DNA of 64,000 nt from Imbricaverruca yamaguchii (taxonomy: Eukaryota; Arthropoda; Thecostraca; Neoverrucidae). Both the position numbers and the translations under genes were made by a program. The DNA lies in the NCBI GenBank assembly GCA_034440575.1, contig JAOTOL010001563.1, positions 518,001-582,000 on the forward strand, read 5' to 3'. A model generated the notes under the pieces. That model had not been told where the DNA came from. It made no database searches and saw only the letters and a program-made list of their open reading frames with translations. This document shows positions 10,551 through 59,734 of this stretch, one piece after another. Positions within the stretch are counted from its first letter, which is position 1. Every line of letters starts with the position of its first letter.

Positions 10551-12134
10551 GACCATGTGACTGTGCCATCAGATGTAGCTGGTACATCCCCTGAAGCAGA
10601 CATCTTACTGATGACTGTGCCATCAGATGGAACTGGTGCAGCCTGTGAAGCAGGCATCTGACCGGTGACTGTACCATCAGGTGGAGCTGGTATGGCCCCT
10701 GAAGCAGGCATCTGATTGGGTGACTGTGCTGTCAGATGAAACTGGTATGGCCACTTGAGCAGATATCTGACCAGGTCACTGTGTCATCAGATGGAGTTTG
10801 TACAGCCCCTGGAGCAGGAATCTGACTGGGTGACTTCTGTCAGATGGAGCTGGCATGGCCACCTGAGGAGATGTCTGACTGGGTGACTGTGTTATCAGAT
10901 GGAGTTGGAGTCACCTGGAGATGTCACCTGGTCAGATGCCCCTGAAGTGGGCATCTGACCAGGTGACTGTGCCATCAGATGGAGCTGGTACGAACGTCTG
11001 ACTGGGTGACTGTCATCAGATGGAGCTGGTACATCCCCTTGAGCAGGTGTCTGACCAGGTGACTGTGGTCAGATGGAGCTAGTACTGCTCCTGTAGCGGG
11101 CTTCTGACCAGGTGACTGTGGTCAGATGGAGCTGGTATGTCCCCTTGAGCAGGTGTCTGACCAGGTGACTGTGGTCAGATGGAGCTGGTACTGCTCCTGA
11201 AGCGGGCTTCTGACCAGGTGACTGTGGTCAGATGGAGCTGGTATGGCCCCTGAAGCAGGTATCTGACCAGGTGACTGTGGTCAGATAGAGCTGGTACATC
11301 CCTTTGGGCATGTGGCTGACCAGGTGACTGTGGTCAGATGGAGCTGGTATGTCCCCTTGAGCAGGTGTCTGACCAGGTGACTGTGGTCAGATGGAGCTGG
11401 TATGTCCCCTTGAGCAGGTGTCTGACCAGGTGACTGTGGTCAGATGGAGCTGGTACTGCTCCTGAAGCGGGCTTCTGACCAGGTGACTGTGGTCAGATGG
11501 AGCTGGTATGGCCCCTGAAGCAGGTATCTGACCAGGTGACTGTGGTCAGATAGAGCTGGTACATCCCTTTGGGCATGTGGCTGACCAGGTGACTGTGGTC
11601 AGATGGAGCTGGTATGTCCCCTTGAGCAGGTGTCTGACCAGGTGACTGTGGTCAGATGGAGCTGGTATGTCCCCTTGAGCAGGTGTCTGACCAGGTGACT
11701 GTGGTCAGATGGAGCTGGTACTGCTCCTGAAGCGGGCTTCTGACCAGGTGACTGTGGTCAGATGGAGCTGGTATGGCCCCTGAAGCAGGTATCTGACCAG
11801 GTGACTGTGGCCAGATAGAGCTGGTACATCCCTTTGGGCATGTGGCTGACCAGGTGACTGTGGTCAGATGGAGCTGGTATGTCCCCTTGAGCAGGTGTCT
11901 GACCAGGTGACTGTGGTCAGATGGAGCTGGTATGTCCCCTTGAGCAGGTGTCTGACCAGGTGACTGTGGTCAGATGGAGCTGGTATGTCCCCTTGAGCAG
12001 GTGTCTGACCAGGTGACTGTGGTCAGATGGAGCTGGTATGTCCCCTTGAGCAGGTGTCTGACCAGGTGACTGTGGTCAGATGGAGCTGGTATGGCCCCTG
12101 AAGCAGGTATCTGACCGGATGACTGCGCTGTCAG
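10551..12134. repeat. 53-bp minisatellite ending at the zinc-finger gene's 3' splice site
   Basis: About 30 units built on 'gtgactgtggtcag|atggagctggta' plus a variable 'tgtccccttgagcaggtgtc' part. The last unit runs into the exon at 12135: the true junction gcgctgtcag|atggagctggt is the same sequence as in each unit. Between about 11130 and 11880 four variant units recur in a fixed order (A A B C D), giving a higher-order repeat of about 265 bp seen three times. Confidence 0.85.
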
Positions 12135-12295
12135 ATGGAGCTGGTGCCGCCGCCCGAGCGGGTGACATTGCCAGCCGGCGCCCACTTGGTGCAGTGTTTC
12201 GTCTGCACGGCCATGTTCTACACGCGCGAGGAGCTTGAGAAGCATGTGAGAATGCACAGGAAGACGGACATCGTGAGGGCCGCCTCGGAGCACAG
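12135..12295 (+). CDS. C2H2 zinc-finger gene, first recognisable exon
   Basis: Reads MELVPPPERV and then one zinc finger, C21-X2-C24-X12-H37-X3-H41, ending at a GTGGGT donor. 53 codons plus two bases remain, which join the single base of the next exon to make Arg, so the phases match. The 5' edge is either a tcag acceptor or the start ATG itself, since the first three bases are ATG. If it is an acceptor, more exons lie upstream. The exon is GC-rich, unlike the AT-rich block before it. C2H2 fingers bind DNA or RNA, and the target is unknown. The upstream intron side is a minisatellite that copies this junction. Confidence 0.75.
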
Positions 12296-12319
12296 GTGGG
12301 TGTAGTGCCTACTGCCGAT

Positions 12320-12640
12320 TACTGAGTGGGATATGTCGCCCTGTCTAAACTGCCTGCAGACTACTGAGTGGAATATGTCACCCTGTCTCAGCCTCCCACT
12401 GAGTATGACATATTGTCTGTCTTGGCCTACAGCTGAGTATGACATGTCATGCTGTCTCAGCCTACCACTGAGTAAGATATGTCGCGCTGTCTCAGCCTAC
12501 CACTCAGTAGGACATGTCATGCCGTCTCAGCCTACCACTCAGTGTGGCATGTCATGCTGTCTCAGCTGACCACTCAGTTGGACGTGCCACACTGTCTCAG
12601 CCTACGACTCAGTAGGACATGTCGCGCCATCTCAGCCTGC
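12320..12640. repeat. 36-bp minisatellite just after exon 1 donor
   Basis: About eight units of the form 'cactgagtaggacatgtcat' plus 'gctgtctcagccta'. It starts roughly 25 bases after the exon 1 donor but does not contain that donor sequence. Confidence 0.75.
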
Positions 12641-12713
12641 TGCCTGGGAAGCAGAATACACCTGCCTTGGCTCACCACACATGTCATGTCCATACAGGGT
12701 TAAAATATTGGTT

Positions 12714-13174
12714 TTTTGTTAGGTGTGAGATGTCGAAATGGGCACCGAAGGATGCCGAATTTTGCTATGAAATTAGTGTCAATTAAAGTGCTTTTGATAT
12801 TTTTCCAACTCAAGTTTGAGCCAATGGTGTACATACTTATGACTACATTTTTCATTTGCTTTGAGATTCATAATTTAGGAAGGGTTGTATTCAGGACAGG
12901 GAGAACATGACCTATGCTATAATTTGATACCGTACGCCATATCACATAGTTAATCCCTTTACCCAAAATTACGTTGCGATATGTCCGTGTGTCACTATTC
13001 CTTATTAGGAGCATTGACATGATACGTATAAGCGAGATACTGCTAGAAAGGAGACACGAAGACTTCATAAGCACGCATCATGGAGCAAGATGTTGATACT
13101 TCTGGGAGAAGGATGTCGATTGAGTGTCCAGAAAGTGGTATTTTCCACCCTATTTGACGAATAATTTATCACTG
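12714..13174 (+). repeat. Dispersed ~470-bp non-coding repeat, copy 2
   Basis: Starts 'tgttaggtgtgagatgtcga' and ends 'caccctatttgacgaataat...actg'. It lies in the intron of the zinc-finger gene and matches copies at 7399-7865 and 29931-30260. Confidence 0.65.
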
Positions 13175-16545: not shown

Positions 16546-16548
16546 AGC

Positions 16549-19609: not shown

Positions 19610-19795
19610 GGCTTTTTTAGACCCCATTTTAGACCATTTTAGACCCCACTCGTCGAGGGCTTTTTGATGGTACCTACTCACTTGGTTTTCGTGCAACGTT
19701 TAATTTGAACATTATATGGATGTCTTTAAGGACCCCTGTACCACCAACATGGGATGTGAGGATGTGACCGAAAAGACGGCGCGTGTTGAGAATAA
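19610..19795 (-). mobile_element. Degraded TTAA foldback element fragment
   Basis: Order of landmarks matches the right end of the element at 29069-29909: 'cactcgtcgag.gcttt', 'ttcgtgcaacg', 'gggatgtgaggatgtgaccg' and 'agacggcgcg.gtt'. Strong sequence decay and no intact ends. Confidence 0.5.
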
Positions 19796-21276: not shown

Positions 21277-21517
21277 GCTGCACAGCTGGACACTGGTGGC
21301 CGCCGACGACCCTGACGCCGTGTACACCGACCTGGACGCCGGGCCGAGCGGCGGCGGCGCGCGCGACTCGACCAGCGCCGAGCTGGAGCTGCCAGCTGCC
21401 GAGCTGCTCTGTACCGAGGACTCCCTACACAGCAGCTGTCCGTCGCCAGGGCCGGCGGCTCCCGGCGAGCCCACCGTGCTGCGGCCGGCGCCCGAGTACC
21501 ACGGACCCGACTTCAGC
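21277..21517 (+). CDS. C2H2 zinc-finger gene, acidic linker exon
   Basis: Acceptor ctccggcag, donor CTTCAGC|GTGAGTG. One base completes Ala from the previous exon and the exon ends in phase 0, matching the next exon. 80 codons: LHSWTLVAADDPDAVYTD, then a Ser/Glu/Pro-rich stretch ending YHGPDFS. No finger or other domain is recognisable, so it is probably a disordered linker. The reading frame stays open past the donor for about 120 more codons because the following minisatellite has no stop in this frame. Confidence 0.75.
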
Positions 21518-21832
21518 GTGAGTGCACCGGGCGGGACCTCACTGCACTGGGTGCGGCGTCAGTGCACTGGGTGCACTGGGCGGGACCTCACTGCACTGGG
21601 TGCAGCGTCAGTGCACTGGGCGGGACCTCACTGCACTGGGTGCAGCGTCAGTGCACTGGGTGCACTGGGCGGGACCTCACTGCACTGGGTGCGGCGTCAG
21701 TGCACTGGGTGCACTGGGCGGGACCTCACTGCACTGGGTGCAGCGTCAGTGCACTGGGTGCACTGGGCGGGACCTCACTGCACTGGGTGCAGCGTCAGTG
21801 CACTGGGTGCACTGGGCGGGACCTCACTACCG
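21518..21832. repeat. 49-bp minisatellite starting at exon 3 donor
   Basis: Six or so units of 'gtgcactgggcgggacctca' plus 'ctgcactgggtgcagcgtca'. The first unit is the donor itself: CAGC|GTGAGTGCACCGGGC in the exon junction against CAGC|GTCAGTGCACTGGGC in each unit. All three forward frames are stop-free across the array. Confidence 0.85.
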
Positions 21833-26192: not shown

Positions 26193-27605
26193 GTGTACAG
26201 CAGCGAGGTGGCGCCGTGTGCCTCGGCCGGCTACGGCGTGTCGTCGGCTCGCCGACCACCCCTGACGCTGCCCGCCGAGGCGACCCCCGCCGGCAGCGCA
26301 GTCTCCGACTCCAACTACGTGAGCTTCAAATGCATCCACTGCTCGCGAGAGTTCGGCACCGCCGAGGACATCCACGGCCACCTGTCGCTGATCAGCGAGG
26401 CCAGTCACGTGTGCCAGGCGTGCCACGAGGTGTGCCAGAACACCTGGCACCTGGCCGACCACATGGCGCGCCACAACTCGCCGCGGCCCTTCAAGTGCGG
26501 CGTGTGCGCGCGTGAGTTCCGCACGCCGGCTCTGCATCGGCAGCATATCCTGCAGCACATACCGCCTCGCATCAGGGACCGCGTCGGCGGCGAGCTGGGA
26601 CCGCCGGCCGAACTGCTGCCCGCGCCCGCCGACCTGCTGCCGCCGCCACCGCCTCCGCCGCCCCCGCCGCCACCGCCACCACCTCCGCCACCACCACCGC
26701 CTCCTCCGCCAGTGGCAGCGGCGGCGACAGCGACAGCGACGGCGCAGGTATCGGTGGCGCCCGTGGCACCGTCGGCGGAGCGGAAGCCGGTGTCGTGCTC
26801 TAAGTGCGGCGCGTCGTTCCGGCTGTCTGCGGCCCTGCACCGCCACATGGACACCCGACACCAGCGGCCGCGCCGGCCGGTACGCCGCATCTGCAGCTGC
26901 GACCACTGCGGCCGCATCTTCTTCAGCTATAAACAGCTGCGCTGGCACGCCGAGATCCACGGCAAGCGGCCGCGCACGTGCGGCACGTGCGGACTGCGCT
27001 TCCTGCACCAGTCGTGGTTGACTCGCCACATACGGTCGCAGCACAACCCGCGCTTCGTGGGCGGCAACAGCGGCGAGACGCGGCCCTGTCCCGTCTGTCA
27101 GAGGGTGTACATGCGTTCGTCGCTGCTCAAGCACATTCGGACGATGCACCAGGACCTGAAGCCGTACCAGTGTCCTCGCTGCGGCCGCCGCTTCGCCGCC
27201 AAGTGCAACCTGCAGTGTCACGTGCTGTCGCACCTGAGCGCGCGCGACCGGCCACACAAGTGCCAGCACTGCCGCAAGGCCTATACCACCGAGCGCGACC
27301 TGCGCGTGCACAGCGCCACGCACGAGGGCAAGAAGTTCCCGTGCAAGGTGTGCGGCCGTCAGTTCAGCCGGGTGAGCTCGATGAACGTGCACCTACGCGA
27401 GCACGGCGGCGAGAAGAACCACGTGTGCGCCTGCTGTGGAAAGCGATTCGCACGCAAGGCCTACCTCACGGCGCACCTGCGCATCCACACGGGCGAGCGG
27501 CCGCACGTGTGCACCGTCTGTGAGCGCTCGTTCGCCAGTCGCAGCAACTACAACGCGCACGTGCGCAGTCATAATCGGCGTGAGCCGATCAACGCCGAGC
27601 TGTGA
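26193..27605 (+). CDS. C2H2 zinc-finger gene, terminal exon with the finger array
   Basis: Acceptor gttggcag, phase 0, open for 470 codons to TGA at 27603. It has one degenerate finger (FKCIHC with an overlong His spacing), then eleven canonical C2H2 fingers. The first two (starting CQAC and CGVC) precede a proline run encoded near 26640-26710. Nine follow (starting CSKC, CDHC, CGTC, CPVC, CPRC, CQHC, CKVC, CACC, CTVC). Only one TGERP-type linker is seen, between the last two. Joined to the three upstream exons the product is about 722 residues and is probably a nuclear DNA-binding regulator. I cannot name an orthologue. The antisense 427-codon ORF here is a codon-bias shadow. No clear AATAAA is seen close after the stop. 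Confidence 0.9.
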   Translation: MYSSEVAPCASAGYGVSSARRPPLTLPAEATPAGSAVSDSNYVSFKCIHCSREFGTAEDIHGHLSLISEASHVCQACHEVCQNTWHLADHMARHNSPRPFKCGVCAREFRTPALHRQHILQHIPPRIRDRVGGELGPPAELLPAPADLLPPPPPPPPPPPPPPPPPPPPPPPPVAAAATATATAQVSVAPVAPSAERKPVSCSKCGASFRLSAALHRHMDTRHQRPRRPVRRICSCDHCGRIFFSYKQLRWHAEIHGKRPRTCGTCGLRFLHQSWLTRHIRSQHNPRFVGGNSGETRPCPVCQRVYMRSSLLKHIRTMHQDLKPYQCPRCGRRFAAKCNLQCHVLSHLSARDRPHKCQHCRKAYTTERDLRVHSATHEGKKFPCKVCGRQFSRVSSMNVHLREHGGEKNHVCACCGKRFARKAYLTAHLRIHTGERPHVCTVCERSFASRSNYNAHVRSHNRREPINAEL

Positions 27606-37204: not shown

Positions 37205-37508
37205 CAACTGCAGCTGCCATAATCAGCTGACCTGCGCCAGTCAGGTCCGGACCCCTGCAGCTGCCATAATCAGCTGACCTGCGCCAGTCAGGTCCGGACC
37301 CCTGCAGCTGCCACAATCAGCTGACCTGCGCAGTCAGGTCCGGACCCCTGCAGCTGCCATAATCAGCTGACCTGCCCCGGCCAGGTCCGGACCCCTGCAG
37401 CTGCCATAATCAGCTGACCAGCCCCGGCGAGGTCTGCACCCCTGCAGCTGCCATAATCAGCTGACCAGCTCCGGCGAGGTCTGCACCCCTGCAGCTGCCA
37501 TAATCAGC
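37205..37508. repeat. 47-bp minisatellite just after the exchanger stop codon
   Basis: About six units of 'agctgccataatcagctgac' plus 'ctgcgccagtcaggtccgga' and 'cccctgc'. It ends 65 bases beyond the stop codon at 37573 (minus strand), so it probably lies in the 3' untranslated region. Confidence 0.85.
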
Positions 37509-37572: not shown

Positions 37573-37898
37573 TCACAGCCGCGAGCGCTCCTCGTCGTCG
37601 CACACCGACTGGTCCATGCTAACGGCCGTGAAGTTCTTGTGGCCGGCGGCGTCCTCGGCCGCCTCGTCCACCGACGCCGGCTTCGAGTTCTGGTTGGCCG
37701 GGTGGCCGCTTGGAGCCGCCTCCGTCGCGGCCGCCTCCAGACAGATGGCGACATCGTCGGTCGGCGGCTCGGCAAAATGTCGCCGCAGCGAGGCGCGCAG
37801 CGAGCTGAGGCCGGTGCGGAACGAGCTGGTGAGCGAGCTGCGCCGCGGGCGGAACTCCTGCAGCTCGAACGAGGTCGGCGGTCCGGAGCTGTTTACTT
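37573..37898 (-). CDS. Na+/H+ exchanger tail, terminal exon
   Basis: Read on the minus strand: acceptor gtggcag|AAGTA, two bases complete Glu from the previous exon, then 107 sense codons and a stop at 37575-37573. It begins EVNSSGPPTSFELQEF, has a Ser/Arg-rich stretch (RPRRSSLTSSFRTGL, a likely phosphorylation-type region) and ends SMDQSVCDDEERSRL. No membrane segment is present, which fits the cytosolic C-terminus of an exchanger. Immediately upstream of the acceptor is a short ggtca microsatellite (37914-37930). The terminal exon is weakly conserved in this family, so its assignment rests on phase and splice signals. Confidence 0.7.
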
Positions 37899-37945
37899 CT
37901 GCCACTGGGGTCAGGTCAGGTCAGGTCATGTCAGCTCAAGTCACC

Positions 37946-38519: not shown

Positions 38520-38962
38520 ACTCAACAACGACTCACACTGACCCGACAGAGGCCCACACTGACCCAACAGAGGCCCACACTGATCCGACAGAGGTCCACA
38601 CTGACCCGACAGAGGCACATACTGACCCGACAGAGGCCCACACTGACCAAAGAGAGGTTCACACTGACTCGACAGAGGCCCACACTTACCCGACAGAGGC
38701 TCACACTGACCCGACAGAGGCTCACACTGACCCGACAGAGGCCCACACTGACCCGACAGAGGCCCACACTGACCCGACAGAGGCCCACACTGACCCGACA
38801 GAGGCACACACTGACCCGACAGAGGCCCACACTGACCCGACAGAGGCCCACAGTGATCCGACAGAGGCTCACACTGACCCGACAGAGGCTCACGCTGACC
38901 CGACAGAGGCTCACACTGGCTCGACAGAGGCCCACACTGACCCGACAGAGGCTCATACTGAC
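38520..38962. repeat. 21-bp minisatellite starting at an exchanger donor site
   Basis: About 21 units; the minus strand reads GTCAGTGTGGGCCTCTGTCGG. The exon junction is CTGGCGG|GTCAGTATGAGCC, so every unit repeats the donor CGG|GTCAGT. 21 bp is seven codons and the exon's frame stays open through the array as heptads of the CGPLSGQ type. Confidence 0.9.
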
Positions 38963-39124
38963 CCGCCAGCGACTCGGGTGGTGAGGCGTAGTTGGTGTAA
39001 TCCTCATTGGAGATCCAGGCCGGAGCGCTAGTGTTGTGCCACTTGAGCGGCCGGTGGCAGACCAGCACCTCGTCGTTCCTCTTCCAGGGTAGCACGCTCT
39101 CAGTCTCCGTAATGTGGTTCGTCC
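38963..39124 (-). CDS. Na+/H+ exchanger tail, exon 6 of the visible set
   Basis: Minus strand: acceptor tgtcgccag, donor CGG|GTCAGT. It enters with two bases (completing Gly) and leaves with one, agreeing with both neighbours. Text includes HITETESVLPWKRNDE and APAWISNEDYTNYASPP. The ESVLPWKR and PAW...YSSP-like motifs recall the distal tail of arthropod plasma-membrane exchangers. That is recollection of family style, not an alignment. The donor side is a 21-bp minisatellite copying the junction. Confidence 0.75.
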
Positions 39125-40194: not shown

Positions 40195-40567
40195 CTGCAA
40201 CACCAGTGACGTCAAGTTCGAAGGTTCGGACGTGGATGTCTAGATCGACCGTGGGAGGGCGAGACTTCTGGGACTTACAGCCTTATGCATCCACTGCATG
40301 GTAAATGTCGAATCAAGGACCGGCAAAACATCATACGTGTGATCTCGCTGCGTGCTGAGAGCTTGGATTGTGCAACAAGGCCTACGTGGCCCACAGCAAG
40401 GCCCACATAGACACAGTTCTATATCTGAGTAAGTGTTCTACAAAACTTGAACCATGAGCTGAATTCGCCCTCGGTGTTATGATTCAGCACTCACAGTTTT
40501 GCTAGGTTTGCTAGGTGTCGGTCAATGTAATGAAGTTGACACCTGACAACATTTCGGCGGCAGGAGC

Positions 40568-40804
40568 GCCACGGACCTGGCCTGCAGGCCGGCATTGGGT
40601 CTCTTTGTGTGAAATATTTGCAGCACTGCTGTACACTGTAGTCGCCACGGACCTGGCCTGCAGGCCGACATTGGGTCTGTTTGTGTCAAATATTTGCAGC
40701 ACTGCTGTACAGTGTAGCCGCCACGGACCTGGCCTGCAGGCCGGCATTGGGTCTGTTTGTGTGAAATATTTGCAGCACTGCTGTACAGTGTGGCCGCCAC
40801 GTAC
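40568..40804. repeat. 76-bp triplication beginning at an exchanger donor site
   Basis: Three units of 76 bp beginning gccacggacctggcctgcag at 40568, 40644 and 40720. The exon junction at 40805 (minus: GACG|GTACGTGGCGGCC) is a fourth, diverged version of the unit edge (minus: CAGGTCCGTGGCGGC). Confidence 0.85.
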
Positions 40805-40883
40805 CGTCCTTGAGCTTCACCGTCGATCCGTTGGTTTGAACGGCGAACGAGACGTTCTTGCGCGGAGACGGGCCGCTGGCGTT
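40805..40883 (-). CDS. Na+/H+ exchanger tail, exon 4 of the visible set
   Basis: Minus strand: acceptor cctctcggcag, donor GACG|GTACGTGG. Phase 0 in, one base out, agreeing with both neighbours. 26 codons: NASGPSPRKNVSFAVQTNG followed by STVKLKD. The RKNVSFAV core resembles a conserved short motif of the exchanger tail as I recall it. The intron on the 3' side is a 76-bp triplication, and that on the 5' side is a 2.6-kb minisatellite. Confidence 0.75.
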
Positions 40884-45345: not shown

Positions 45346-46379
45346 CCTGAACAAAAAATCAGATTCAATGCACATTTGCGAGTTTATATATAGGGTAAAT
45401 AGGAACTATTCGCTCTGGCAATTGGTTAGATGAACAAGTTTTGCGCATCGTCATAGTAAACGGTATTTTGTTTGCTTTTTATGTTCATGGTAGTGCTCTG
45501 GTGTAACATTCACGTGTGTGGATATACACTGGCGATTTTTGCAATGCGTCGTATAATGCCCTATGTTTGGATGTATGCCATCATGGGATGCACTCGAAGT
45601 ATAGTAAGCGTAATCAAACTTCTGAGTCATTGTAAGGAGTGTCATTTTAAAAGTGCATGCTGGGTTTGAAACATCGGCTCGGTTCCCGGAGGGTCACCAC
45701 ATATGGTGCGATATCACAGCGATAGCGTCACATCACAATTAGAAATCTTAGAACGAAGTGGGTCACCTCGTCTGCGACAACACATTATCGGTGAGAGCAA
45801 AACTGAACATACCAATCGTAGGAGTGTGATAGCAGAGGTTAGCCAACGTTCGGCGACTTCGCTTCTCCTGGATTGGAGTGAACCCCAGTGGCTGGGCGGT
45901 GGGTTCAAGCGTCCAGGCGAGTTCAAGCAAGGGCATGTGATTGGACTGAGTATATCAGATCGAGCGGCCATAGCACAGCACGGATCAGGCAGGATTTCAA
46001 CAAACTACTGCACACGATCCAGGCTATCCTTTTCGGAAGATGGTTAGTTATTCGGGCGCATCGACTGCTTCGGCAATACAGCGCCCATCCTTTTCGGAAG
46101 CTACAATGCTACAATGCACACACCGCTGAATATCATTAATGTATCACATGTGTGGTCATATTAGGACGACCATTATTTCGAAGCCCAATGATAAATCGGG
46201 CATGGGCCAGAGGTTAAAACCGGTCATACTGAACCCAAAGCACATGAAAGGTATTGAAAAGCATATAACACTTCAATTATCATATAAGCACTATATATAT
46301 AAGCATTATCATATAAGCACTATATCATATAAGCATATAACACCATATATAACACTTCATTCATCACGTTCCAACCAAG
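45346..46379. other. Intronic sequence upstream of the non-LTR element
   Basis: No exon found. It holds a copy of the short dispersed motif (46041-46090) and an AT-rich 'catataagcactatatat' stretch at 46260-46350. Confidence 0.4.
46041..46090 (+). repeat. Short dispersed motif, copy 3
   Basis: Reads ggttagttattcgggcgcat, cgactgcttcggcaataca, gcgcccat. Its left part lacks the 'ggcttag' link seen in other copies. Confidence 0.55.
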
Positions 46380-48205
46380 AGAAAGAGTTGTTCGCTGACG
46401 ACCAAAACCGGCATTTTTCTTCAACTGGCAAGTGCGTGGCTGCTGCTTTGCATTCTTTAGGGGATTTAGGCCCAAATACAATGCATCAACCTCGCCCTCC
46501 GCGCGTTGTTAGCTCAGCATTCAAGCTGAAGCCCGCCACTCTTCCAGAACTCTCTCATGCCCTGCGTGATTTAAATCCTACCAGTGCTCGTGGTACCGAC
46601 AATGTGTCCCTGAAATTGCTCAATATGTCGTTTCCTTCGGTGTGTGTTCATATTTTGCACATAATCAACTTCAGTTTATCGTCATGTACTTTTCCGGAAC
46701 TGTGGAAGTTGGCTGAAATCGTACCAATCTTCAAGAAAGGCTGCCCTGACGACCCCAAGTGTTATAGGCCCATCTCGATCTTGAGTAATGTGTCAAAACT
46801 GTGCGAGAAGATAGTAGTCAACCAGCTCACTGCGTATCTCCACAGAAATTGTCTTCTTAACAACTCGCAACATGCCTATCGGCCACTTCACTCTACTGAA
46901 ACTGCCCTTGCTGATGTAGTAGCTTATATTACAAATTGCATCGAAAGGCGACGCGTTTGTCTGCTCGCATCAGTATATTTGTCTAGTGCCTTCGATTGTG
47001 TGTCTCATAGCCGACTCTTAACCAAATTAGAGTGGTACGGCATCGACAGCTCTTGGTTTAGATCTTACCTTTCAAATCGCAGACAGGTAGTTAGGCCCGG
47101 AAAACTTGCATGCAACGTATCCTGTGGTGTTCCACAAGAAAGTTTGTGCGGTCCAATTTTGTTTTTGTTGTACACAAATGATCTTCTCTCGCACATAGGT
47201 GATGTCTTTAAAGTCGTTGCTTACGCTGACGACACACAGGCAATGTTGTCATCGAAATTGGAGGACATAATGTATGCAAAACGTCGTCTCGAATCGTGCT
47301 TGGAAACTATGAGCTCGTGGTACCATGTAAATCTTCTCAAGTTCAACCCATCTAAAACGCAATTTGTGATTTTTGGTTCTCGCCAGATGATCGCGCGGCT
47401 ACCTAGCATCAACCTCTCTGTTCTTGGATCGGATATTTCACGTGTCTCATCTATCAAGAACTTGGGCGTGACCATGGACGAATCGTTAACATGGAGTGAA
47501 CAAATTGGCGATATTGCTAAGAAATGTAACCGCATTATCTTTCCTCTAGCCAAGCATGTACGTTCTCTTACTGAAGAAACGCTGTCGAAGTTAGTGCTTG
47601 CACTGGTTTTCCCCCATGTAATGTACTGTTGCTCAATCTGGTCTGCTGCATGTGACACCGAACGCGCGCGAATCCAAAAAGTCATAATGAGGGCGGCTAG
47701 GATCATAACTGGGACCTCTCGCTATGGCCATATATCGCATGTTATCGAGCGGTTGGGCTGGCCTAGCTTTCAGCGCTTTGTCGACATTAGGGATTGCTCA
47801 CTGGTTCATCTTGCAGTGCATCACTCGGGAACACCTAAAACCCTGCGTGATCTTGTGACATTGAGAAGTGATGTCAGCTCCCGATCTACGCGATCAACAC
47901 CGTTTTCAGTAGAGCGCCCACGCCTGAAAACTTCTTTTGCGCAACGCTCTTTTATGTACCGTGCTGCAGTTCTTTGGAACAGTCTCCCCGAGGAAGTTAA
48001 GGCCGAGAATATGCGACGGGCTTTTAAGTTTAAGCTGAAGGAGGCGCTGAGAAGAGCTGTACGTGAGAATGTTTAAGTATTGTATGCGTGTGTTTCTTAA
48101 TGTTTCAGCAGCCTCCTGTCCCACCCCATTTTTTTTTAGCGTTTTTGACATTTGATGCTGAGTGTCTCTTGGTACCAATACAAGGAATACAATACAATAC
48201 AATTA
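46380..48205 (+). pseudogene. 5'-truncated non-LTR retrotransposon with defective reverse transcriptase
   Basis: One long open frame (46139-48076) covers most of a reverse transcriptase: PIFKKG, YRPISILSNVSKL, AYRPLHSTETAL, a GVPQESLCGPILF motif, YADDTQAM and a C-terminal RAAVLWNSLPEE. The catalytic Asp of motif A is replaced: the codon at 46976-46978 gives Tyr in SVYLSSAFDC, where the family has an Asp. GVPQG is GVPQE. No endonuclease or ORF1 precedes it. The 3' end has a taca-type tail (aatacaatacaatacaat). It is a CR1/jockey-like element, probably inactive, antisense in an exchanger intron. Confidence 0.85.
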
Positions 48206-48511: not shown

Positions 48512-48640
48512 CCGCTGCCGCTTGCGCCGGTACATGTCTATCATGCGCTGTTTCATGTAGCGCTGCATGGTGTGGTTGACAGGCCGGGTATGCATATCTT
48601 CATCACAGACAGCGTGACGCGAGTAGCTCCAGCGCCTCCT
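48512..48640 (-). CDS. Na+/H+ exchanger tail, exon 3 of the visible set
   Basis: Minus strand: acceptor gtgtgaccag, donor CGG|GTGAGT, phase 0 at both ends, 43 codons. It begins RRRWSYSRHAVCDEDMHTRP, continues VNHTMQRYMKQRMIDMYRR and ends KRQR. The basic, helix-prone character fits the region of exchanger tails that binds regulators, and the YSRHAV and MQRYMK words resemble arthropod exchangers as I recall them. The intron side before the acceptor is an 11-bp repeat (48641-49010) whose units resemble the acceptor text. Confidence 0.75.
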
Positions 48641-49010
48641 CTGGTCACACAGCGGTCATACAGCGGTCATACAGCGGTCACACATCGGTCATACAGCGGT
48701 CACACGGCGGTCATATAGTGGTGATAATAGTCACACAGCGGTCACACAGCGGTCACTCGGCGGTCATATAGTGGTGATAATAGTCACACAGCGGTCACAC
48801 AGTGGTCACACATCAGTCATATAGTGGTAGCATAGAGGTCCCACAGTGGTCATACAGCGGCCATAAGTGGTCATACAGCGGCCATATGGTGATGACAGAA
48901 GTCACATAGTAGTCGCAATCGGTCAGATGGTGGTGACAGAAGTCACACAGCGGTCATATAGTGATGGCATAGAAGTCACACAGTGATCACAAAGGTTACA
49001 TAGTGATGAC
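48641..49010. repeat. 11-bp-based minisatellite at an exchanger acceptor
   Basis: Irregular units of agcggtcatac / agcggtcacac with larger blocks containing 'tagtggtgataatagtcaca'. On the minus strand the units read TGTGTGACCGC, close to the acceptor TGTGTGACCAG. Confidence 0.8.
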
Positions 49011-50095: not shown

Positions 50096-51250
50096 ATGGC
50101 ACCGGCGCTGTTTGTGCTGCTCTCTCTGCTGGCCACGGCGCGCGCCAGAGCCGCCTCGCCGTCGCTGGGCTGCTTCGGCCAGACGGAAACCATGGTCGAC
50201 TGGTACGTGCTCAGCAAGCTACCCAAGCTCTCCGAGGACGACGACGATCTCGTGCGCGACGGCTCGGCCTACGTGCTGGCGACGAGTTCTGCGGACGACG
50301 CGTGGGCCATGTCGGAGGTGCCCATCACGGCCGCCGACTCGGCGGCCGGCCGCACGCTGGCCGCCATCTACGACCAGCCCGACCGCGCCGACCTGCTCTA
50401 CGTGTTCTACAACGACGAGCAGCCCGACGGTAGCACCACCAGCGCGCACGGCCACACAAAGGGCGTGGTGGCGTTCGACGGTGCCGCCGGTTTCTGGCTA
50501 GTGCACAGCGTCCCGCAGTTCCCGCCGGCACCCGGCGACGGCTACAGCTACCCGAGCAGCGGCCAGCGCTACGGTCAGAGCGCCGTCTGCATCACACTGA
50601 CGGCGCAGCAGGTGGAGATGGTGGCGCAGCAGCTGCTGCTCGACGACCCCTACATCTACGCCAGCCGGCTGTCGCAGCAGCAGGCTGACCAGTACCCGCT
50701 GATGGCGCTGGTGGTGCAGGGTGAGCGCGTCACACAGCCGCCCTGGCACGGCCACGTGCAGCTGGACACTGCCGACGGACAGATGTGGACCAGCTTCGCC
50801 AAGGCGCGCCAGTTTGGCGACGACTTGTACGCCGGCCTGGTGGCGCCCACGCTGCAGGCGCCCCTTCTCACGGAGACCTGGATGCGGGCGCCGACCGAAG
50901 AGCAACTGGCGTCGAACTGCTCGATCGCCTACGCGGTGCACAACGTGCGAGACGTGGTTGTGAGCGCCGGCCGTGCCGCTGGAGGCGACATCAGTGTCAA
51001 CTTCACCAGCACCATCGACCACAGCAAGTGGGCGGTCTCGCAGGACGAGACCGCGCCGTGGGTGTGCGTCGGGGACATCAACCGCTCTAGCACGCAGTAC
51101 GACAGGGGTGGTGGCACCCTCTGCAGCAGCAGCAGCCAACTGTGGCAGCTGTACTCGCAGATGGTGGACGACGTGGAGCCCTGTCCAGACCGCCGACACA
51201 CGGGGAGATCAGGTCGCCGCCAGCAGACCTGTTCCGCCTCGCCACCATAG
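50096..51250 (+). CDS. Deoxyribonuclease II
   Basis: 384 residues from the ATG at 50096, chosen because a hydrophobic signal peptide (MAPALFVLLSLLATARA) follows directly. DNase II is an acid endonuclease that degrades DNA from engulfed or dead cells in lysosomes. Two HxK catalytic motifs are visible: HTK at residues 120-122 (AHGHTKGVV) and HSK at 309-311 (TIDHSKWAV). The family's C-terminal signature follows as CVGDINR and RGGGTLCSSSSQLW, ending DDVEPC. The Cys that usually follows KW in the second motif is Ala here. The last 20 or so residues after EPC are unusual and the stop codon lies in the first unit of a 44-bp minisatellite. It is a single exon, nested antisense in an exchanger intron. 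The human enzyme is about 360 residues. Confidence 0.92.
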   Translation: MAPALFVLLSLLATARARAASPSLGCFGQTETMVDWYVLSKLPKLSEDDDDLVRDGSAYVLATSSADDAWAMSEVPITAADSAAGRTLAAIYDQPDRADLLYVFYNDEQPDGSTTSAHGHTKGVVAFDGAAGFWLVHSVPQFPPAPGDGYSYPSSGQRYGQSAVCITLTAQQVEMVAQQLLLDDPYIYASRLSQQQADQYPLMALVVQGERVTQPPWHGHVQLDTADGQMWTSFAKARQFGDDLYAGLVAPTLQAPLLTETWMRAPTEEQLASNCSIAYAVHNVRDVVVSAGRAAGGDISVNFTSTIDHSKWAVSQDETAPWVCVGDINRSSTQYDRGGGTLCSSSSQLWQLYSQMVDDVEPCPDRRHTGRSGRRQQTCSASPP

Positions 51251-52410
51251 CCTGACACACATTGGGGAGATCATGCTCCGCCTCGCCACCATAGCCTGAC
51301 ACACACTGGGGAGATCATGCCCCGCCTTGCCACCATAGCCTGACACACACTGGGAAGATCATGTTCCGCCTCGCCACCATAGCCTGACACACACTGGGGA
51401 GATCATGTTCCGCCTTGCCACCAAAGTCTGACACACACTGGGGAGATCATGTTCCGCCTTGCCACCATAGCCTGACACACACTGGGGAGATCATGTTCCG
51501 CCTCGCCACCATAGCCTGACACACACTGGGGAGATCATGTTCCGCCTCGCCACCATAGCCTGACACACACTGGGGAGATCATGCTCCGCCTCGCCACCAT
51601 AGCCTGCACACACTAGGGAGATCATGTTCCGCCTTGCACCATAGCCTGACACACTGGGGAGATCATGCCCCGCCTTGCCATCATAGCCTGACACACACTG
51701 GGAAGATCATGTTCCGCCTCGCCACCATAGCCTGACACACACTGGGGAGATCATGTTCCGCCTTGCCACCAAAGTCTGACACACACTGGGGAGATCATGC
51801 CCCGCCTTGCCACCATAGCCTGACACACACTGGGAAGATCATGTTCCGCCTCGCCACCATAGCCTGACACACACTGGGGAGATCATGTTCCGCCTTGCCA
51901 CCAAAGTCTGACACACACTGGCGAGATCATGTTCCGCCTTGCCACCAAAGTCTGACACACACTGGGGAGATCATGTTCCGCCTTGCCACCATAGCCTGAC
52001 ACACACTGGGGAGATCATGTTCCGCCTTGCCACCAAAGTCTGACACACACTGGGGAGATCATGCCCCGCCTTGCCACCATAGCCTGACACACACTGGGGA
52101 GACCATGCCCCGCCTTGCCACCATAGCCTGACACACACTAGGAAGATCATGCCCCGCCTTCCCACCATAGCCTGACACACACCGGGGAGATCATGTTCCG
52201 CCTTGCAACCATAGCCTGACACACACTAGGGAGATCATGCCCCGCCTTGCCACCATAGCCTGACACACACCGGGGAGATCATGTTCCGCCTCGCCACCAT
52301 AGCCTGACACACACCGGGGAGATCATGTTCCGCCTCGCCACCATAGCCTGACACACACTGGGGAGATCATGCCCCGCCTCGCCACCATAGTCTGACAAAC
52401 ACTGGGGATA
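51205..52410. repeat. 44-bp minisatellite overlapping the DNase II 3' end
   Basis: About 27 units of 'acacacactggggagatcat' plus 'gttccgcctcgccaccatag' and 'cctg'. The first, diverged unit forms the C-terminal codons and stop of the DNase II frame. Confidence 0.9.
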
Positions 52411-53248
52411 TTATGTTCAATTGATCAATTTATTGATCAATTGATTTATTTATTTATTATTTTGGCTTAGGGGCGCCTCAACCGTTACTGGTTCGCCACC
52501 GTATCCCCGACACGCACATACAAAGACCCCAGCTGCACAGAACGGGCGATAGACGGCTGTGTCGTCTCAAGAAGTCATGTATCGTCACTCAAAAGTATCT
52601 ATTTTCGTTCGTACTTATAGCCTTGAAGTAAGTTAGATTGCTGTTGGAACATTAGCAGTCATAGTGAACTCGAAATATGTCTGATTGCTGTTGGAACGTT
52701 CGCTATCATACCCAGTAAACTTGAAATAATAACTTGATAGGATAAATAACCTGAACTTGAAATCCTGCTCGGGTGTTCGCAGTCATAACCAGTGAACTTA
52801 AAAAAGTTAGATTGCTGTTGGATCGTTTTAGCCTGGTTGTGCCTGAATAATGCAATTTTCGTCCCTGGTGATGGGCGTTTTCCGATGATAGGTATTCCTG
52901 TATAAATATTATTTCGATGGTAGATATGTGACCGATGGCAAATATCTACGGCCGGGGATACTTCCATGGTGGTGGGCATCTCTCTGTGACAGGCACTTCC
53001 CCATGCTCGATATTTCCCCTGTGGTGAAATTCCCCTGTGGTGGGCACTTCCAATGTGCCGGACAATTTCGCTCCTGAGCATTTGCTCGCAGTGATGGCCA
53101 TTTCCCCTTGCTGGATATTTCCCCTTGCTGGATATTTCCCCAATGTCAATATTTACCTGGCAGTAGATATTTCCTCCATGGTCCGTATTTACCATGCAGT
53201 GGGCATTTTTCCTTGCTGGATATTTTCCCATGGTCGGTATTTACCCTA
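52411..53248. other. Unique intronic sequence
   Basis: Contains a short dispersed motif copy (52452-52500) and loose repetition of 'atatttccccttgctgg' at 52950-53230 leading into the 29-bp array. No exon found. Confidence 0.4.
52452..52500 (+). repeat. Short dispersed motif, copy 4
   Basis: Reads atttatttattattttggct, taggggcgcctcaaccg, ttactggttcgcc. This is the most diverged copy, identified mainly by ttggcttaggggcgcc. Confidence 0.4.
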
Positions 53249-54828
53249 CGGTGGGCACATACCCGGTAGTATGGCTGTGGTGGCCACATACCCGGTAGTA
53301 TGGCTGTAGTGGCCACATACCCGGTAGTATGGCTGTGGTGGGCACATACCCGGTAGTATGGCTGTGGTGGCCACATACCCGGTAGTATGGCTGTAGTGGC
53401 CACATACCCGGTAGTATGGCTGTGGTGGGCACATACCTGGTAGTGTAGCTGTGGTGGGCATATACCCGGTAGTATGGCTGTAGTGGCCACATACCCGGTA
53501 GTATGGCTGTGGTGGCCACATACCCGGTAGTATGGCTGTGGTGGCCACATACCCGGTAGTGTGGCTGTGGTGGGCACATACCCGGTAGTATGGCTGTGGT
53601 GGCCACATACCCGGTAGTATGGCTGTGGTGGCCACATACCCGGTAGTATGGCTGTGGTGGGGACATACCCGGTAGTATGGCTGTGGTGGGCACATACCCG
53701 GTAGTATGGCTGTGGTGCGCACATACCCGGTAGTATGGCTGTGGTGGCCACATACCCGGTAGTATGGCTGTGGTGGCCACATACCCGGTAGTGTGGCTGT
53801 AGTGGCCACATACCCGGTAGTATGGCTGTGGTGGCCACATACCCGGTAGTGTGGCTGTGGTGGCCACATACCCGGTAGTATGGCTGTGGTGGGGACATAC
53901 CCGGTAGTGTAGCTGTGGTGGGCATATACCCGGTAGTATGGCTGTGGTGGGCACATACCCGGTAGTATGGCTGGGGTGGGCACATACCCGGTAGTATGGC
54001 TGTGGTGGGCACATACCCGGTAGTATGGCTGTGGTGGCCACATACCCGATAGTGTGGCTGTGGTGGCCACATACCCGGTAGTATGGCTGTGGTGGGCACA
54101 TACCCGGTAGTGTGGCTGTGGTGGGCACATACCCGGTAGTATGGCTGTGGTGGGCACATACCCGGTAGTATGGCTGGGGTGGGCACATACCCGGTAGTAT
54201 GGCTGTGGTGGCCACATACCCGATAGTGTGGCTGTGGTGGCCACATACCCGGTAGTGTGGCTGTGGTGGGCACATACCCGGTAGTGTGGCTGTGGTGGCC
54301 ACATACCCGGTAGTGTGGCTGTGGTGGGCACATACCCGGTAGTGTGGCTGTGGTGGGCACATACCCGGTAGTATGGCTGTGGTGGGCACATACCCGGTAG
54401 TATGGCTGGGGTGGGCACATACCCGGTAGTATGGCTGTGGTGGCCACATACCCGATAGTGTGGCTGTGGTGGCCACATACCCGGTAGTATGGCTGTGGTG
54501 GGCACATACCCGGTAGTGTGGCTGTGGTGGGCACATACCCGGTAGTATGGCTGTGGTGGCCACATACCCGGTAGTGTGGCTGTGGTGGGCACATACCCGG
54601 TAGTATGGCTGTGGTGGCCACATACCCGGTAGTATGGCTGTAGTGGCCACATACCCGGTAGTGTGGCTGTGGTGGCCACATACCCGGTAGTGTCGCTGTG
54701 GTGGCCACATACCCGGTAGTATGGCTGTGGTGGGCACATACCCGGTAGTATGGCTGTGGTGGGCACATACCCGGTAGTATGGCTGTGGTGGGCACATACC
54801 CGGTAGTATGGCTGTGGTGGGCACATAC
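53249..54828. repeat. 29-bp minisatellite starting at an exchanger donor, ~54 units
   Basis: On the minus strand each unit is CCATACTACCGG|GTATGTG then CCCACCACAG. The exon junction at 54829 is CAGCCATACTACCGG|GTATGTG, so the unit spans 12 exon and 17 intron bases. Every unit has a donor and, before it, a CACCACAG that looks like an acceptor. Since 29 is not a multiple of three and no frame has a stop, all three minus-strand frames are open for 500-600 codons. Confidence 0.95.
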
Positions 54829-54967
54829 CCGGTAGTATGGCTGCATCTGGTCGTCCGTCAGCAGATGGTGGATGGTGGCGTCGTTGAGGTCCTTCATGGA
54901 CGGGTTGTAGCGCAGCTCGTTCATGTCGGGCATGTAGGTGCTGTCTAGTCGGGACAGGTTCCAGTTG
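54829..54967 (-). CDS. Na+/H+ exchanger tail, exon 2 of the visible set
   Basis: Minus strand: acceptor ccgccttccgcag, one base completes Ser from the previous exon, then 46 codons ending QMQPYYR at a GTATGT donor in phase 0. Text: NWNLSRLDSTYMPDMNELRY and NPSMKDLNDATIHHLLTDD. The xxNPSMKDLxDxxIHHLL pattern is the part I associate with plasma-membrane exchangers of arthropods. The intron that follows is a 29-bp minisatellite made of copies of this junction. Confidence 0.8.
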
Positions 54968-55009
54968 CTGCGGAAGGCGGTGCACAAGCGTCAGATGGAG
55001 TACTCACGT

Positions 55010-55510
55010 CTCAACTCGCGCTGCTGCCGACTCCACAGTACCTGCCAGAGTAGTGTGGCCGAGTTACTCAGGTCTGAACTCGTGCTGCTACCGACTCCAC
55101 AGTACCTGCCAGAGTAGTGTGGCCGAGTTACCCACATCTCAACTCGTGCTGCTACCGACTCCACAGCATCTGCCAGAGTAGTGTGGCCGAGTTACCCACA
55201 TCTCAACTCGTGCTTCTACCGACTCCCCAGTACCTGCCGAGTAGTGTGGCCAGTTACTACGTTCACTCTGCTGCTACCGACTCCCCAGTACCTGCCAGAG
55301 TAGTGTGGCCGAGTTACCCACATCTCAACTCGTGCTGCTACCGACTCCACAGCATCTGCCAGAGTAGTGTGGCCGAGTTACCCACATCTCAACTCGTGCT
55401 GCTACCGACTCCCCAGTACCTGCCAGAGTAGTGTGGCCGAGTTACCCACATCTCAACTCGTGCTGCTACCGACTCCCCAGTACCTGCCAGAGTAGTGTGG
55501 CCGAGTTTAC
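55010..55510. repeat. 64-bp minisatellite near an exchanger acceptor
   Basis: Seven units of 'tgccagagtagtgtggccga' plus 'gttacccacatctcaactcg' and 'tgctgctaccgactccccag'. It lies about 45 bases upstream (in gene sense) of the exon at 54967. Confidence 0.85.
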
Positions 55511-55945
55511 AATGCCAAGAGACGCAGATTTCATAGTAAAAACAGACAGCTCTTTGGTAGTGGAATTGCTGTCGACTTTAGCATGAGCAGAATAATTAGA
55601 AATTACTAAGTGCTAGAAGACGTCTTACCACCTGACAAGTAGAAGCGTCCAATGAGTCCCCTGAGAGGGAGGATGCTAACTTAACACCGACGACAAAACT
55701 AGATTAAAACATTTACAGCGATTCGCTTCGTGCCGAATTTTCCTCGCAGCACTAGCAGCCGCAAGGAGCAGTCCGTGGCTGCAGAATAATCGGCCTTGAA
55801 TGTGCTGCTCGTTATCGTCTAGGTTGTCCGGTTTTAGAGCTGGGACGCACTCGTTAACACGCACCCTGGACGGAAGGGGGGGGCCAAAATCCTGCCGATA
55901 TACGCCATTGTTTGTGTACCTGCTTAGAAATGGCCAGCGCGTTGC
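55511..55945. other. Unique intronic sequence
   Basis: No exon or repeat recognised. Confidence 0.4.
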
Positions 55946-57205: not shown

Positions 57206-57495
57206 ATTCGCAGCGCTGGAAAATAAAAATCGGCGCTGATGCGCTTCCAGAATATAGGCAAAAAGGAAGTGCTCTTGGCAACTCTAGCGATTTGCTCTTC
57301 TCTCCTGGGTACTGCGTATCCACGGCATGTGCCGATGTGGCAGCCCACTACCACCAGCCCGTGCGACATGTGTAAAGGTCAGCAGCACCTGGAGCTGGCC
57401 GACCACAGGCGCATATTTGCACGCGCGGGGTTGTTGCACTGATGTGCACGTACTATTTACGGCTTGCTACGCGCCAAGCGCGGACTGGTCACTAG
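57206..57495. other. Unique intronic sequence
   Basis: GC-rich stretch before the 11-bp array. A short ORF at 57239-57442 shows no domain. Confidence 0.35.
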
Positions 57496-57892
57496 CGCGA
57501 CGGTCATCGGACGGTCATCGGACGGTCATCGGACGGTCATCGGACGGACATCGGACGGTCATCGGACAGTCATCGAACGGTCATCGGACGGTCATCGGAC
57601 GGTCATCGGACGGTCATCGGACAGTCATCGGACGGTCATCGGACGGTCATCGGACGGTCATCGGTTGGTTGGTTATTGGAGTTTAGGGGCGCATCGACTA
57701 CATCGGTCATGCAGCGCCTCGGACGGTCATCGGACGGTCATCGGACGGTCATGTGACTGTCATCGGACGGTCATCGGACGGTCATCGGACGGTCATCGGA
57801 CGGTCATCGGACGGTCATCGGACGGTCATCGGACGGTCATCGGACGGTCATCGGACGGTCATGGGACTGTCATCGGACGGTCATCGGACGCA
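57496..57892. repeat. 11-bp minisatellite, interrupted
   Basis: Units of cggacggtcat, over 25 in all, interrupted at 57664-57718 by a copy of the short dispersed motif and bounded on the right by another copy. Confidence 0.9.
57664..57718 (+). repeat. Short dispersed motif, copy 5, inside the 11-bp array
   Basis: Reads ggttggttggttattggagt, ttaggggcgcatcgactaca, tcggtcatgcagcgcc. It is embedded between cggacggtcat units. Confidence 0.7.
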
Positions 57893-57898
57893 GCATAT

Positions 57899-57953
57899 GG
57901 ATTGATTATTTGGGTTTAAGGGCGCGCCAACTACTAGGTCATTTAGCGCCCAT
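57899..57953 (+). repeat. Short dispersed motif, copy 6
   Basis: Reads ggattgattatttgggttta, agggcgcgccaactactagg, tcatttagcgccc. It directly follows the 11-bp array. Confidence 0.65.
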
Positions 57954-58688
57954 TCGGACGCAACAAAAACTAAGATGTTAATATACATGCATTTATTTAA
58001 TAATTAAACCACGGAATCCAAGGCGTTGTTAAGAACATGTGGCGGAAAACTAGTGCATACCACTACCGTCTGTTTCAGGTATGTTTCACCCTTATTCATT
58101 CTGTTTTCGGATCGTCATTTTACTGCTGAAGATAACCACAGTCATTATTCCATGTTCCAGTGGCGGACATCCGACTAGTTTTCTGGAATTTCGTTGCCAT
58201 GTTCAAAAACAGACATGACAGTGGGCGATAATGCGATTAATTACCTGTCGACGGATATACATTTCACCACATTTTTGACCGTCACTTTACAGTCGAAGAC
58301 GAATACAGCCATTACCCAAAATTAGGTCGTGAATATCGTATCCCGTTGTAATGCCTTGCAACGGTAGAACACTTAAAAACATCGCGTTGACCGAGAACGC
58401 AGTTAATTAGCTTCGCCTGACGTACTTTTCACCATTCTGCCTTAACTTATCAACTGCTTAAAATTTTGAACGTTTTGATAATTCCAATGAAATGTGCTCA
58501 CATTGATAGCAATGTGGAACAATCGCCGCACCGTGCCCCACATCACAGGAAACTTCCAGAGACAGATACTCACCGTACGAGCAAACCGTGCCCATCGCCG
58601 GGTAAAACACCGTTCCATAGCCTAACGTAACCACGTGACATCAAAAGGCAGGCGCGAACGCTGCTTGGGCAGTCGTGCCATTTCAAAC
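57954..58688. other. Unique intronic sequence
   Basis: Two diverged copies of a 'cgaagacgaatacagccatta' / 'tgaagataaccacagtcatt' phrase lie at 58120-58310. No exon found. Confidence 0.35.
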
Positions 58689-58689
58689 A

Positions 58690-59510
58690 GCAGCTGACTG
58701 ATTGTTGAATACGCCGGCCATTTCAAATAGTAGCTGACTGATTGTTGAATAGGCCGGCCATTTTAAACAGTAGCTGACTGATGGTTGAATAGGCCGGTCA
58801 TTTCAAATAATAGCTGACTGATAGTTAAATACGCCGGCTATTTCAAACAGTAGCTGATAGTTAAATACGCCGGCCATTTCAAACAGCAGCTGACTGATAG
58901 TTAAATACACCGGCCATTTCAAACAGCAGCTGACTGATGGTTAAATATGTCGGCCATTTCAAACAACAGCTGACTGATAGTTAAATACGCCGGCCATTTT
59001 AAACGGTAGCTGACTGATGGTTAAATACGCCGGCCATTTCAAAGAGTAGCTGATAGTTAAATACGCCGGCCATTTCAAACAGCAGCTGACTGATAGTTAA
59101 ATATGCCGGCCATTTAAACAGCAGCTGACTGATAGTGAAATACGCCGACCATTTCAAACAGTAGCTGACTGATGGTTGAATACGCCGACCATTTCAAACA
59201 GCAGCTGACTGATGGTTAAATACGCCGGCCATTTTAAACGGTAGCTGACTGATGGTTAAATACGCCGGCCATTTCAAAGAGTAGCTGATAGTTAAATACG
59301 CCGGCCATTTCAAACAGCAGCTGACTGATAGTTAAATGCACCGGCCATTCCAAACAGCAGCTGACTGATGGTTAAATATGCCGGCAATTTCAAACAGCAG
59401 CTGACTGATGGTTGAATACGCCGACCATTTCAAACAGTAGCTGACTGATGGTTAAATACGCCGGCCATTTTCAACGGTAGCTGACTGATGGTTCACTACC
59501 CCGACCATCG
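58690..59510. repeat. 40-bp minisatellite following an exchanger donor
   Basis: About 20 units of 'ggccatttcaaacagcagct' plus 'gactgatagttaaatacgcc'. It begins about 15 bases after the donor at 59525 (gene sense) but does not contain the donor itself. Confidence 0.9.
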
Positions 59511-59524
59511 GTGGGCGCACTCAC

Positions 59525-59734
59525 GAGTTGTCCCGGATGATGTTGCCCCAGGACGGCGACGAGTGCATGCGATCGCGACTGCCCTTCCGTCCGCCGTTGA
59601 TGACGTCGTCGACGGCCGACTTCATGGCGTCCTTGAGGGCCAGCTTGCTGAAGGTCTCCATGATCTTGGGGTCGCGGGTGGTGTCCTCGTGCGTCAGCAG
59701 TGGCCGCAGATACTTGTGGTTGAAGTGCTTAAAC
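59525..59734 (-). CDS. Na+/H+ exchanger tail, exon 1 of the visible set
   Basis: Minus strand: acceptor ttctgctgcag|GTTTAAG and donor AACTC|GTGAGT; one base in, two out. Text: FKHFNHKYLRPLLTHEDTT, RDPKIMETFSKLALKDAMK, a basic linker NGGRKGSRDRMHSSPS and WGNIIRDN. FNxKYLRPLL and KLxLKDAM correspond to the membrane-proximal cytosolic part of SLC9-type exchangers (human NHE1 has a related FNKKY segment). These proteins exchange external Na+ for internal H+ at the plasma membrane. The transmembrane transport domain should be encoded upstream, beyond the right edge of this window. The seven exons together give about 398 residues and all six junctions agree in phase. Confidence 0.8.

Follow-up and report, generated by a model that had tools for sequence, protein, structure and literature searches.

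In the barnacle Imbricaverruca yamaguchii, tandem arrays in introns begin at exon–intron borders and in several cases carry the border itself, exon end included, within the repeated unit. Here we examined such arrays in a 64,000-nucleotide stretch of DNA (the window; C1330:518001-582000, in an assembly of 767 Mb and 1430 contigs), in neighbouring exons outside it and in a sample of myosin and chaperonin exons. An initial annotation of the window, made from the sequence alone, had described such arrays in a C2H2 zinc-finger gene and in the gene for a Na/H exchanger; the observation of junction-copying arrays is partly confirmed. We interpret the arrays as ‘mirages’, a term used for amphioxus genes: minisatellites that would arise from a short tandem duplication that by chance includes an exon–intron border and whose copies then multiply within the intron. 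We give this interpretation a probability of about 0.77. On the best reading, arrays are tolerated at the junction, which does not act as a special seed, and copying of the junction mostly reflects G+C-favoured birth of arrays whose unit spans the border, plus a modest unexplained clustering beside exons.

Arrays that copy splice junctions

Where the copying is clear, the unit consists of the local exon end and the adjacent intron bases, and the array lies on the intron side. The cleanest junction copy is found at exchanger exon E0, one of five upstream exons recovered when the contig was extended by 30 kb and searched with P0121, a 966-amino-acid (aa) Na/H exchanger. E0 (L009 ~2109-2269; C1330, minus strand, outside the window) ends in ...GACATCGTGGGTCACCCTGGCCGGTACTACCTGCGTGACAT/GTAAGG, in which the slash marks the border, and the next 0.8 kb holds ~17 repeats of a 46-bp unit made of 41 exonic nucleotides and GTAAG. 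E0 joins exon E1 in phase, with RDM/FKHF at the join as in P0121. The coding sequence of this exon end (DIVGHPGRYYLRDM/FKHF) is conserved in P0121, so that copying went from exon to intron; the copies contain an in-frame stop codon. The exon that precedes E0 has a 24-bp array that starts 17 nt from its donor, and the remaining three upstream exons have no array at their edges.

Within the window, Tandem Repeats Finder finds the arrays of the initial annotation at the places that it gave (Table 1), and three of the five said to start at a splice site and repeat it do copy exon sequence. At the E2 donor (54829), 54 junction copies were found, the first four of them 100% identical (identities for junction copies were computed over the exonic nucleotides and 6 intronic ones). 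At the E5 donor (38963), 24 places with 63-84% identity occur in the 1.7 kb searched; as the array has 20.8 copies, some of these places lie beyond the array or match by chance. At zinc-finger exon 1, an exact copy of 15 nt crosses the border (TCAG/ATGGAGCTGGT), followed by weaker similarity that reaches ~27 nt into the exon, and copies occur at 27 places, with 67-76% identity among the matches listed. This border had been called an acceptor, which is not established: the Amphibalanus protein P0124 starts at the same methionine, so that a copied translation start is equally possible.

The arrays at 21518 (zinc-finger middle exon) and 40805 (E4) start, for the most part, at the donor; their units contain few or no exonic nucleotides, and no clear sharing of exon sequence was seen in the 76-bp array at 40805. 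The array at 48641 (E3), which had been described as acceptor-like, abuts the acceptor but does not copy it: its units carry ACCGC where the acceptor has ACCAG, and the sole ACCAG is the acceptor itself. No junction copy was seen in the 40-bp array beside the E1 donor.

The position of the arrays at AG/GT-like borders is what would be expected if dispersed satellites or introner-like elements had inserted themselves into proto-splice sites. Their units match the local exon end, and the zinc-finger 53-bp array, the one array tested (10400-10700 used as query), has only local matches in the genome (13 of 13), so that we regard such an insertional origin as scarcely credible.

Placement of arrays in the window

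Random placement does not produce the pattern in the window, as the initial annotation had supposed. Of 20 exon edges, 6, 7, 10 and 13 lie within 3, 20, 70 and 120 nt of one of 26 arrays, against means of 0.16, 0.34, 0.88 and 1.47 in 2000 random placements, none of which reached any of the four observed counts. A rough null that also allows an array to overlap the edge by one unit gives 0.45 expected against 6 (P = 8e-6). The arrays were merged by hand from 92 Tandem Repeats Finder rows, with small arrays and the coding run 26601-26710 excluded, and not all of the edges are splice sites, since DNase II and gene ends are counted among them. One of the six edges within 3 nt is 48641, where the junction is not copied. 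Zinc-finger exon coordinates in this test were 1-4 nt off, and the end of DNase II was set at 51205 although its stop codon is at 51250. The window was picked for its striking look, so its P values are not genome-wide.

Junctions in genes not chosen for arrays

In the same genome, 72 myosin-head and 66 chaperonin matches were obtained with Pfam, mostly exon by exon. All 72 myosin and 15 of the 66 chaperonin matches were taken into the analysis; of these 87, 83 were flanked by at least 150 nt on either side. After one copy with a single long uninterrupted match (C1177) was dropped, 149 of 164 possible junctions passed a splice-site score; splice sites were called by consensus near the ends of homology. 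The sample covers two gene families, with paralogues and one allelic-looking pair.

Junction copies occur at ~5% of the sampled junctions. Arrays that start at least 6 nt inside the exon were found at 5 of 77 donors and 3 of 72 acceptors, one of the three acceptors being a misplaced junction. Units of exon-copying arrays are 21-79 bp long, one C1082 myosin exon is copied at both ends, and seven of the eight copies found in the C1376 acceptor array are 92-100% identical. Arrays cover ~20% of the intronic flanks of the sampled myosin exons, with a G+C content of 59% against 51% elsewhere. For comparison, RepeatMasker repeats make up 3.2% of the Pollicipes genome and WindowMasker masked 18.5% of it, according to the repeat figures in PMC8917513.

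Several myosin and chaperonin exon matches have open frames of 690-1772 aa around them, which greatly exceed the exon and may reflect in-frame intronic arrays. Two contig pairs look like unpurged haplotypes: L083/L084 (C1273/C207), which are 96.9% identical, and C89/C1012, judged from the match table only. The L083/L084 pair lacks minisatellites; L083 carries just an AT repeat.

Base composition and motifs

In a first sequence-level test with a one-sided rule, the count was 6 of 96 for junctions and 53 of 1937 for random intronic positions (P = 0.057). Without that rule, random intronic positions lay in arrays more often than junctions did (98 of 588 against 7 of 97, at a threshold of 18), which speaks against a simple enrichment. 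We then used a rate null, in which array starts are placed in coordinates that count each array as one unit and the baseline, beyond 60 nt, is 80 arrays in 132 kb. At the 149 junctions, starts at least 6 nt inside the exon number 8 against 2.8 expected (2.8-fold; bootstrap 1.2-5.0), and starts between one unit inside and 30 nt outside the exon, [-unit,+30], number 28 against 6.1 (4.6-fold; bootstrap over 25 contigs 2.8-7.1). A per-array null gave 8 against 7.9 for exon-overlapping arrays and 28 against 15.7 within 30 nt; it was judged biased, since an array shortens its own flank, and was rejected.

Base composition predicts part of the excess. Arrays are more frequent where local G+C is high, and the surroundings of junctions are rich in G+C, so that G+C alone predicts a 1.87-fold rate; after this adjustment, and with the misplaced junction omitted, exon-overlapping starts number 7 against 5.3 (P = 0.28). 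In the units of 86 arrays far from junctions, donor motifs are not in excess: GTRAGT occurs once in 3385 nt, compared with 62 times in 128752 nt of unique intron, and AGGT at 3.5 compared with 3.6 per kb. Seeding by splice motifs as the main cause was rejected by the rate, G+C and motif tests.

Age and decay of the arrays

Four paralogous myosin donors (C1272, C1274, C1138 and C1135) have a common exon end. In C1274 a 67-bp unit repeats that copy’s own ATGAACA ending, with ~20 exonic nt, and in C1135 a 72-bp unit repeats its own ATGGCCA ending (common with C1138), with ~8 exonic nt; the C1272 and C1138 donors have no array within 180 nt. As the same exon end occurs with and without an array, the arrays look young, local and independent beside an older junction; the paralogues indicate that the junction came first and the array later.

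Junction copies recur on several contigs and often show graded divergence. Decay away from the exon is mixed: of 13 arrays, 11 yielded a rank correlation, 8 negative and 3 positive. Three of the eight negative correlations have P < 0.05, including one at C1138:564602 that shares only ~5 exonic nt, and the correlation at E0 is positive (P = 0.04), the first E0 copy lying outside the search.

How junction copies may arise and persist

We propose that the arrays are born by ordinary local duplication, through replication slippage or repair, favoured by G+C and hence near exons. Duplication of a donor segment e/i, where e is the exon end and i the start of the intron, would give exon-e/i-e/i-intron, in which the first junction is still usable and the rest is intron; acceptors would be the mirror case, in which the last copy serves. 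The exon-proximal copy would remain exon end and splice site, and the others, being intron, would be free to expand and decay. Such a duplication would survive because the exon-proximal copy still serves, whereas one confined to an exon would alter the protein and would probably be lost. That junction copies are tolerated, one of the options in the initial annotation, is supported by their recurrence in genes not chosen for arrays, at donors as well as acceptors and at two of the four paralogous myosin donors.

Several observations weigh against the mirage interpretation. After adjustment for G+C, starts within [-unit,+30] still number 27 against 11.4 (~2.4-fold, P = 6e-5), so that some property of exon edges other than G+C may play a part. 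The units of far arrays contain CAGG and ACCT about twice as often as unique intron does. The window, with 6 of 20 edges, is more extreme than the sample, with 11 arrays that start at or inside 149 junctions. At least one sampled junction was misplaced (C1082:461419, ~70 nt too far upstream), although the array there still reaches the likely true acceptor, with ~6 exonic nt. Finally, the choice of the exon-proximal site among many near-identical copies is a step that we infer.

The clustering that remains after G+C, like the 4.6-fold raw excess, the edges in the window and the two of five further exchanger exons with a copied donor or an array 17 nt away, would also fit true hot spots, at which splicing, or the chromatin or R-loops of exon edges, causes DNA to break or slip and so seeds duplications. 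With exon-inside starts near their G+C-adjusted expectation, no GTRAGT or AGGT excess in far units and the marginal first test on the other side, we consider hot spots unlikely. The earlier suggestion that junctions act as seeds keeps some footing in the 2.8-fold excess of exon starts and the clustering beside exons, and loses ground to the 1.9-fold rate that G+C predicts.

Selection for tandem junction copies, as spare or alternative splice sites that vary the protein, seems highly improbable. The splice dinucleotide is 100% conserved in three of the five window arrays, and its mean conservation is above that of the other unit positions in four of five and below it in one. Many other positions are also at 100%, and other positions surpass the dinucleotide in conservation at E5 and zinc-finger exon 3; the effect, a plain comparison of means, is slight. 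Five of the 16 listed junction-array units are multiples of three, which is chance level, and frame-preserving coding repeats were rejected on this count; copies at E0 carry the in-frame stop noted above. The proposal in the initial annotation that junction copies are selected thus gains little. Since unit lengths show no preference for multiples of three, use of a distal copy would in most cases disrupt the frame, and splicing would have to favour the exon-proximal copy. The 21-bp E5 array (38534-38969, minus strand), which is open in the exon’s reading frame over its full length, is a point in favour of selection: use of distal donors there might do no harm and might lengthen the protein by seven residues per unit, and the array could be a coding variable-number tandem repeat (VNTR) with in-frame alternative donors.

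Genes and arrays of the window

Animal genes occupy the window: DNase II, the C2H2 zinc-finger gene and, on the minus strand, the C-terminal part of the Na/H exchanger. Exchanger exons E1-E6 join in phase and match P0121 with 44% identity over 315 aa; a Pfam scan of the joined exchanger tail gave no match. The zinc-finger gene has barnacle relatives in Pollicipes (P0123, 70%) and Amphibalanus (P0124, named Gfi-1b, 52%), and its exons are supported by homology to P0124 and others. The best matches of DNase II include Pollicipes and Amphibalanus proteins (56%).

Tandem arrays are prone to assembly error, and the gene models were built from DNA sequence and homology. In genomes with such arrays, errors in exon models are also easily made. 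In-phase joins, matches to homologues and the presence of copies on several contigs, often with graded divergence, leave only a very slight chance that the arrays at junctions are an artefact of assembly or of wrong gene models.

The stop codon of DNase II (51250) lies inside the first unit of the 44-bp array, so that the coding sequence ends within a minisatellite. Retroelement frames (reverse transcriptase, gag-like) occur at 46130-48076, 60749-61840 and 62182-63447 of the window, the first of them in the exchanger intron between E3 and E4.

Table 1. Exons, genes and arrays, in window positions unless a contig is named.
Feature	Position	Strand	Details
Array at zinc-finger exon 1	10557..12145	+	53-bp unit, ~29.5 copies; extends into exon 1 and repeats TCAG/ATGGAGCTGGT
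Zinc-finger exon 1	12135..12295	+	MELVPPPERV...SEH; 81% identity to Amphibalanus P0124; left edge is start codon or acceptor
Array after zinc-finger exon 1	12375..12678	+	35-bp unit; 78 nt past exon 1 donor
Zinc-finger middle exon (‘exon 3’ of the initial annotation)	21277..21517	+	donor GTGAGT at 21518
Array at zinc-finger middle exon donor	21514..21828	+	49-bp unit; begins at donor, ~4 exonic nt shared
Zinc-finger last exon	26193..27605	+	C2H2 fingers
Array past E6 stop	37208..37508	-	47-bp unit; 64 nt beyond stop
Exchanger exon E6	37573..37904	-	C-terminal, carries stop codon
Array at E5 donor	38534..38969	-	21-bp unit, 20.8 copies; imperfect copies of 13 exonic nt + GTCAGT
Exchanger exon E5	38963..39124	-	donor GTCAGT
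Array at E4 donor	40567..40805	-	76-bp unit, 3.1 copies; begins at GT of donor
Exchanger exon E4	40805..40883	-	donor GTACGT
Exchanger exon E3	48512..48640	-	in-phase join, P0121 homology
Array at E3 acceptor	48643..48956	-	11/53-bp unit; abuts acceptor, AG not copied
DNase II gene	50096..51250	+	opposite strand, within exchanger E2-E3 intron; flanked by arrays on both sides
Array 3' of DNase II	51230-52418		44-bp unit
Array at E2 donor	53250..54843	-	29-bp unit, 55 copies; 15 exonic nt + GTATGT
Exchanger exon E2	54829..54967	-	donor GTATGT
Array upstream of E2 acceptor	55001..55507	-	64-bp unit; gap to acceptor 33 nt
Array after E1	58677..59508	-	40-bp unit; 16 nt past E1 donor
Exchanger exon E1	59525..59734	-	in-phase join
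Myosin donor copy	C1314		32 bp
Myosin donor copy	C1307		39 bp, ~20 copies
Myosin donor copy	C1082		79 bp, 31 exonic nt
Myosin donor copy	C1274		67 bp
Myosin acceptor copy	C1413		34 bp
Myosin acceptor copy	C1082		degenerate
Myosin acceptor copy	C1376		77 bp, 46 exonic nt

Comparison with known systems

Ordinary intronic minisatellites, or VNTRs, are born locally, expand in tandem and decay. The barnacle arrays resemble them in all of this, here with a preference for G+C, and differ in that the unit extends over a splice site and into coding sequence, which places one copy under selection and leaves the others free of it.

Intron gain by tandem genomic duplication is said to have occurred in potato. 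The barnacle arrays are similar in that exon sequence next to AG/GT is tandemly duplicated, and unlike in that the intron pre-existed at the one junction tested (the four myosin paralogues, two of them without an array) and no new intron is demonstrated. Mirages have been proposed as raw material for the Rogers model of intron gain by such duplication, and junction duplication as a source of intron sliding and gain in amphioxus globin genes (PMC3087553). It is possible, although we hold it doubtful, that barnacle exon edges are hot spots beyond base composition and several percent of junctions mirages, feeding border sliding and a high rate of intron gain in a very diverse lineage. Amphioxus genomes are also very diverse. 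Extreme nucleotide diversity has been reported in a barnacle (PMC8270832).

No report of mirages outside amphioxus genes, crustaceans included, was found in the open-licence literature searched, mostly its top-ranked part. The passages on repeats and introns in one barnacle genome paper (PMC8917513; 11 of 11 places) and 12 of the 33 such places in another (PMC8270832) hold nothing of the mirage kind, and four splice terms do not occur in a genome-wide study of Daphnia tandem repeats (PMC3152781).

In amphioxus, minisatellite-like tandem copies of an intron–exon border are described in Adh3, the globins Gb6 and Gb9, troponin C and PGBD5 (PMC3087553, PMC3902484). They lie at 5' or 3' boundaries, with units of 10-160 bp, many with AG/GT signals (PMC3087553), and normal mRNA is apparently undisturbed, reverse-transcription PCR having suggested regular splicing (PMC3087553, PMC3902484). 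The barnacle arrays are like these in having a border-spanning unit with exonic nucleotides at E2, E5, E0 and the myosin cases (not at 40805 or 48643), in occurring at both donors and acceptors and in unit lengths, 21-79 bp, that fall within the amphioxus range as described. They are unlike them in coming from a barnacle, in reaching up to ~55 copies, in affecting ~5% of sampled junctions rather than single genes and in being known here from DNA alone. Each mirage would offer a natural experiment on splice-site choice by the spliceosome when up to dozens of near-identical sites are present, and a test of whether duplicated junctions feed the sliding and gain of introns, as has been proposed. 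Mirages at this frequency in a crustacean would make what is described in amphioxus a general outcome of tandem duplication in repeat-rich genomes.

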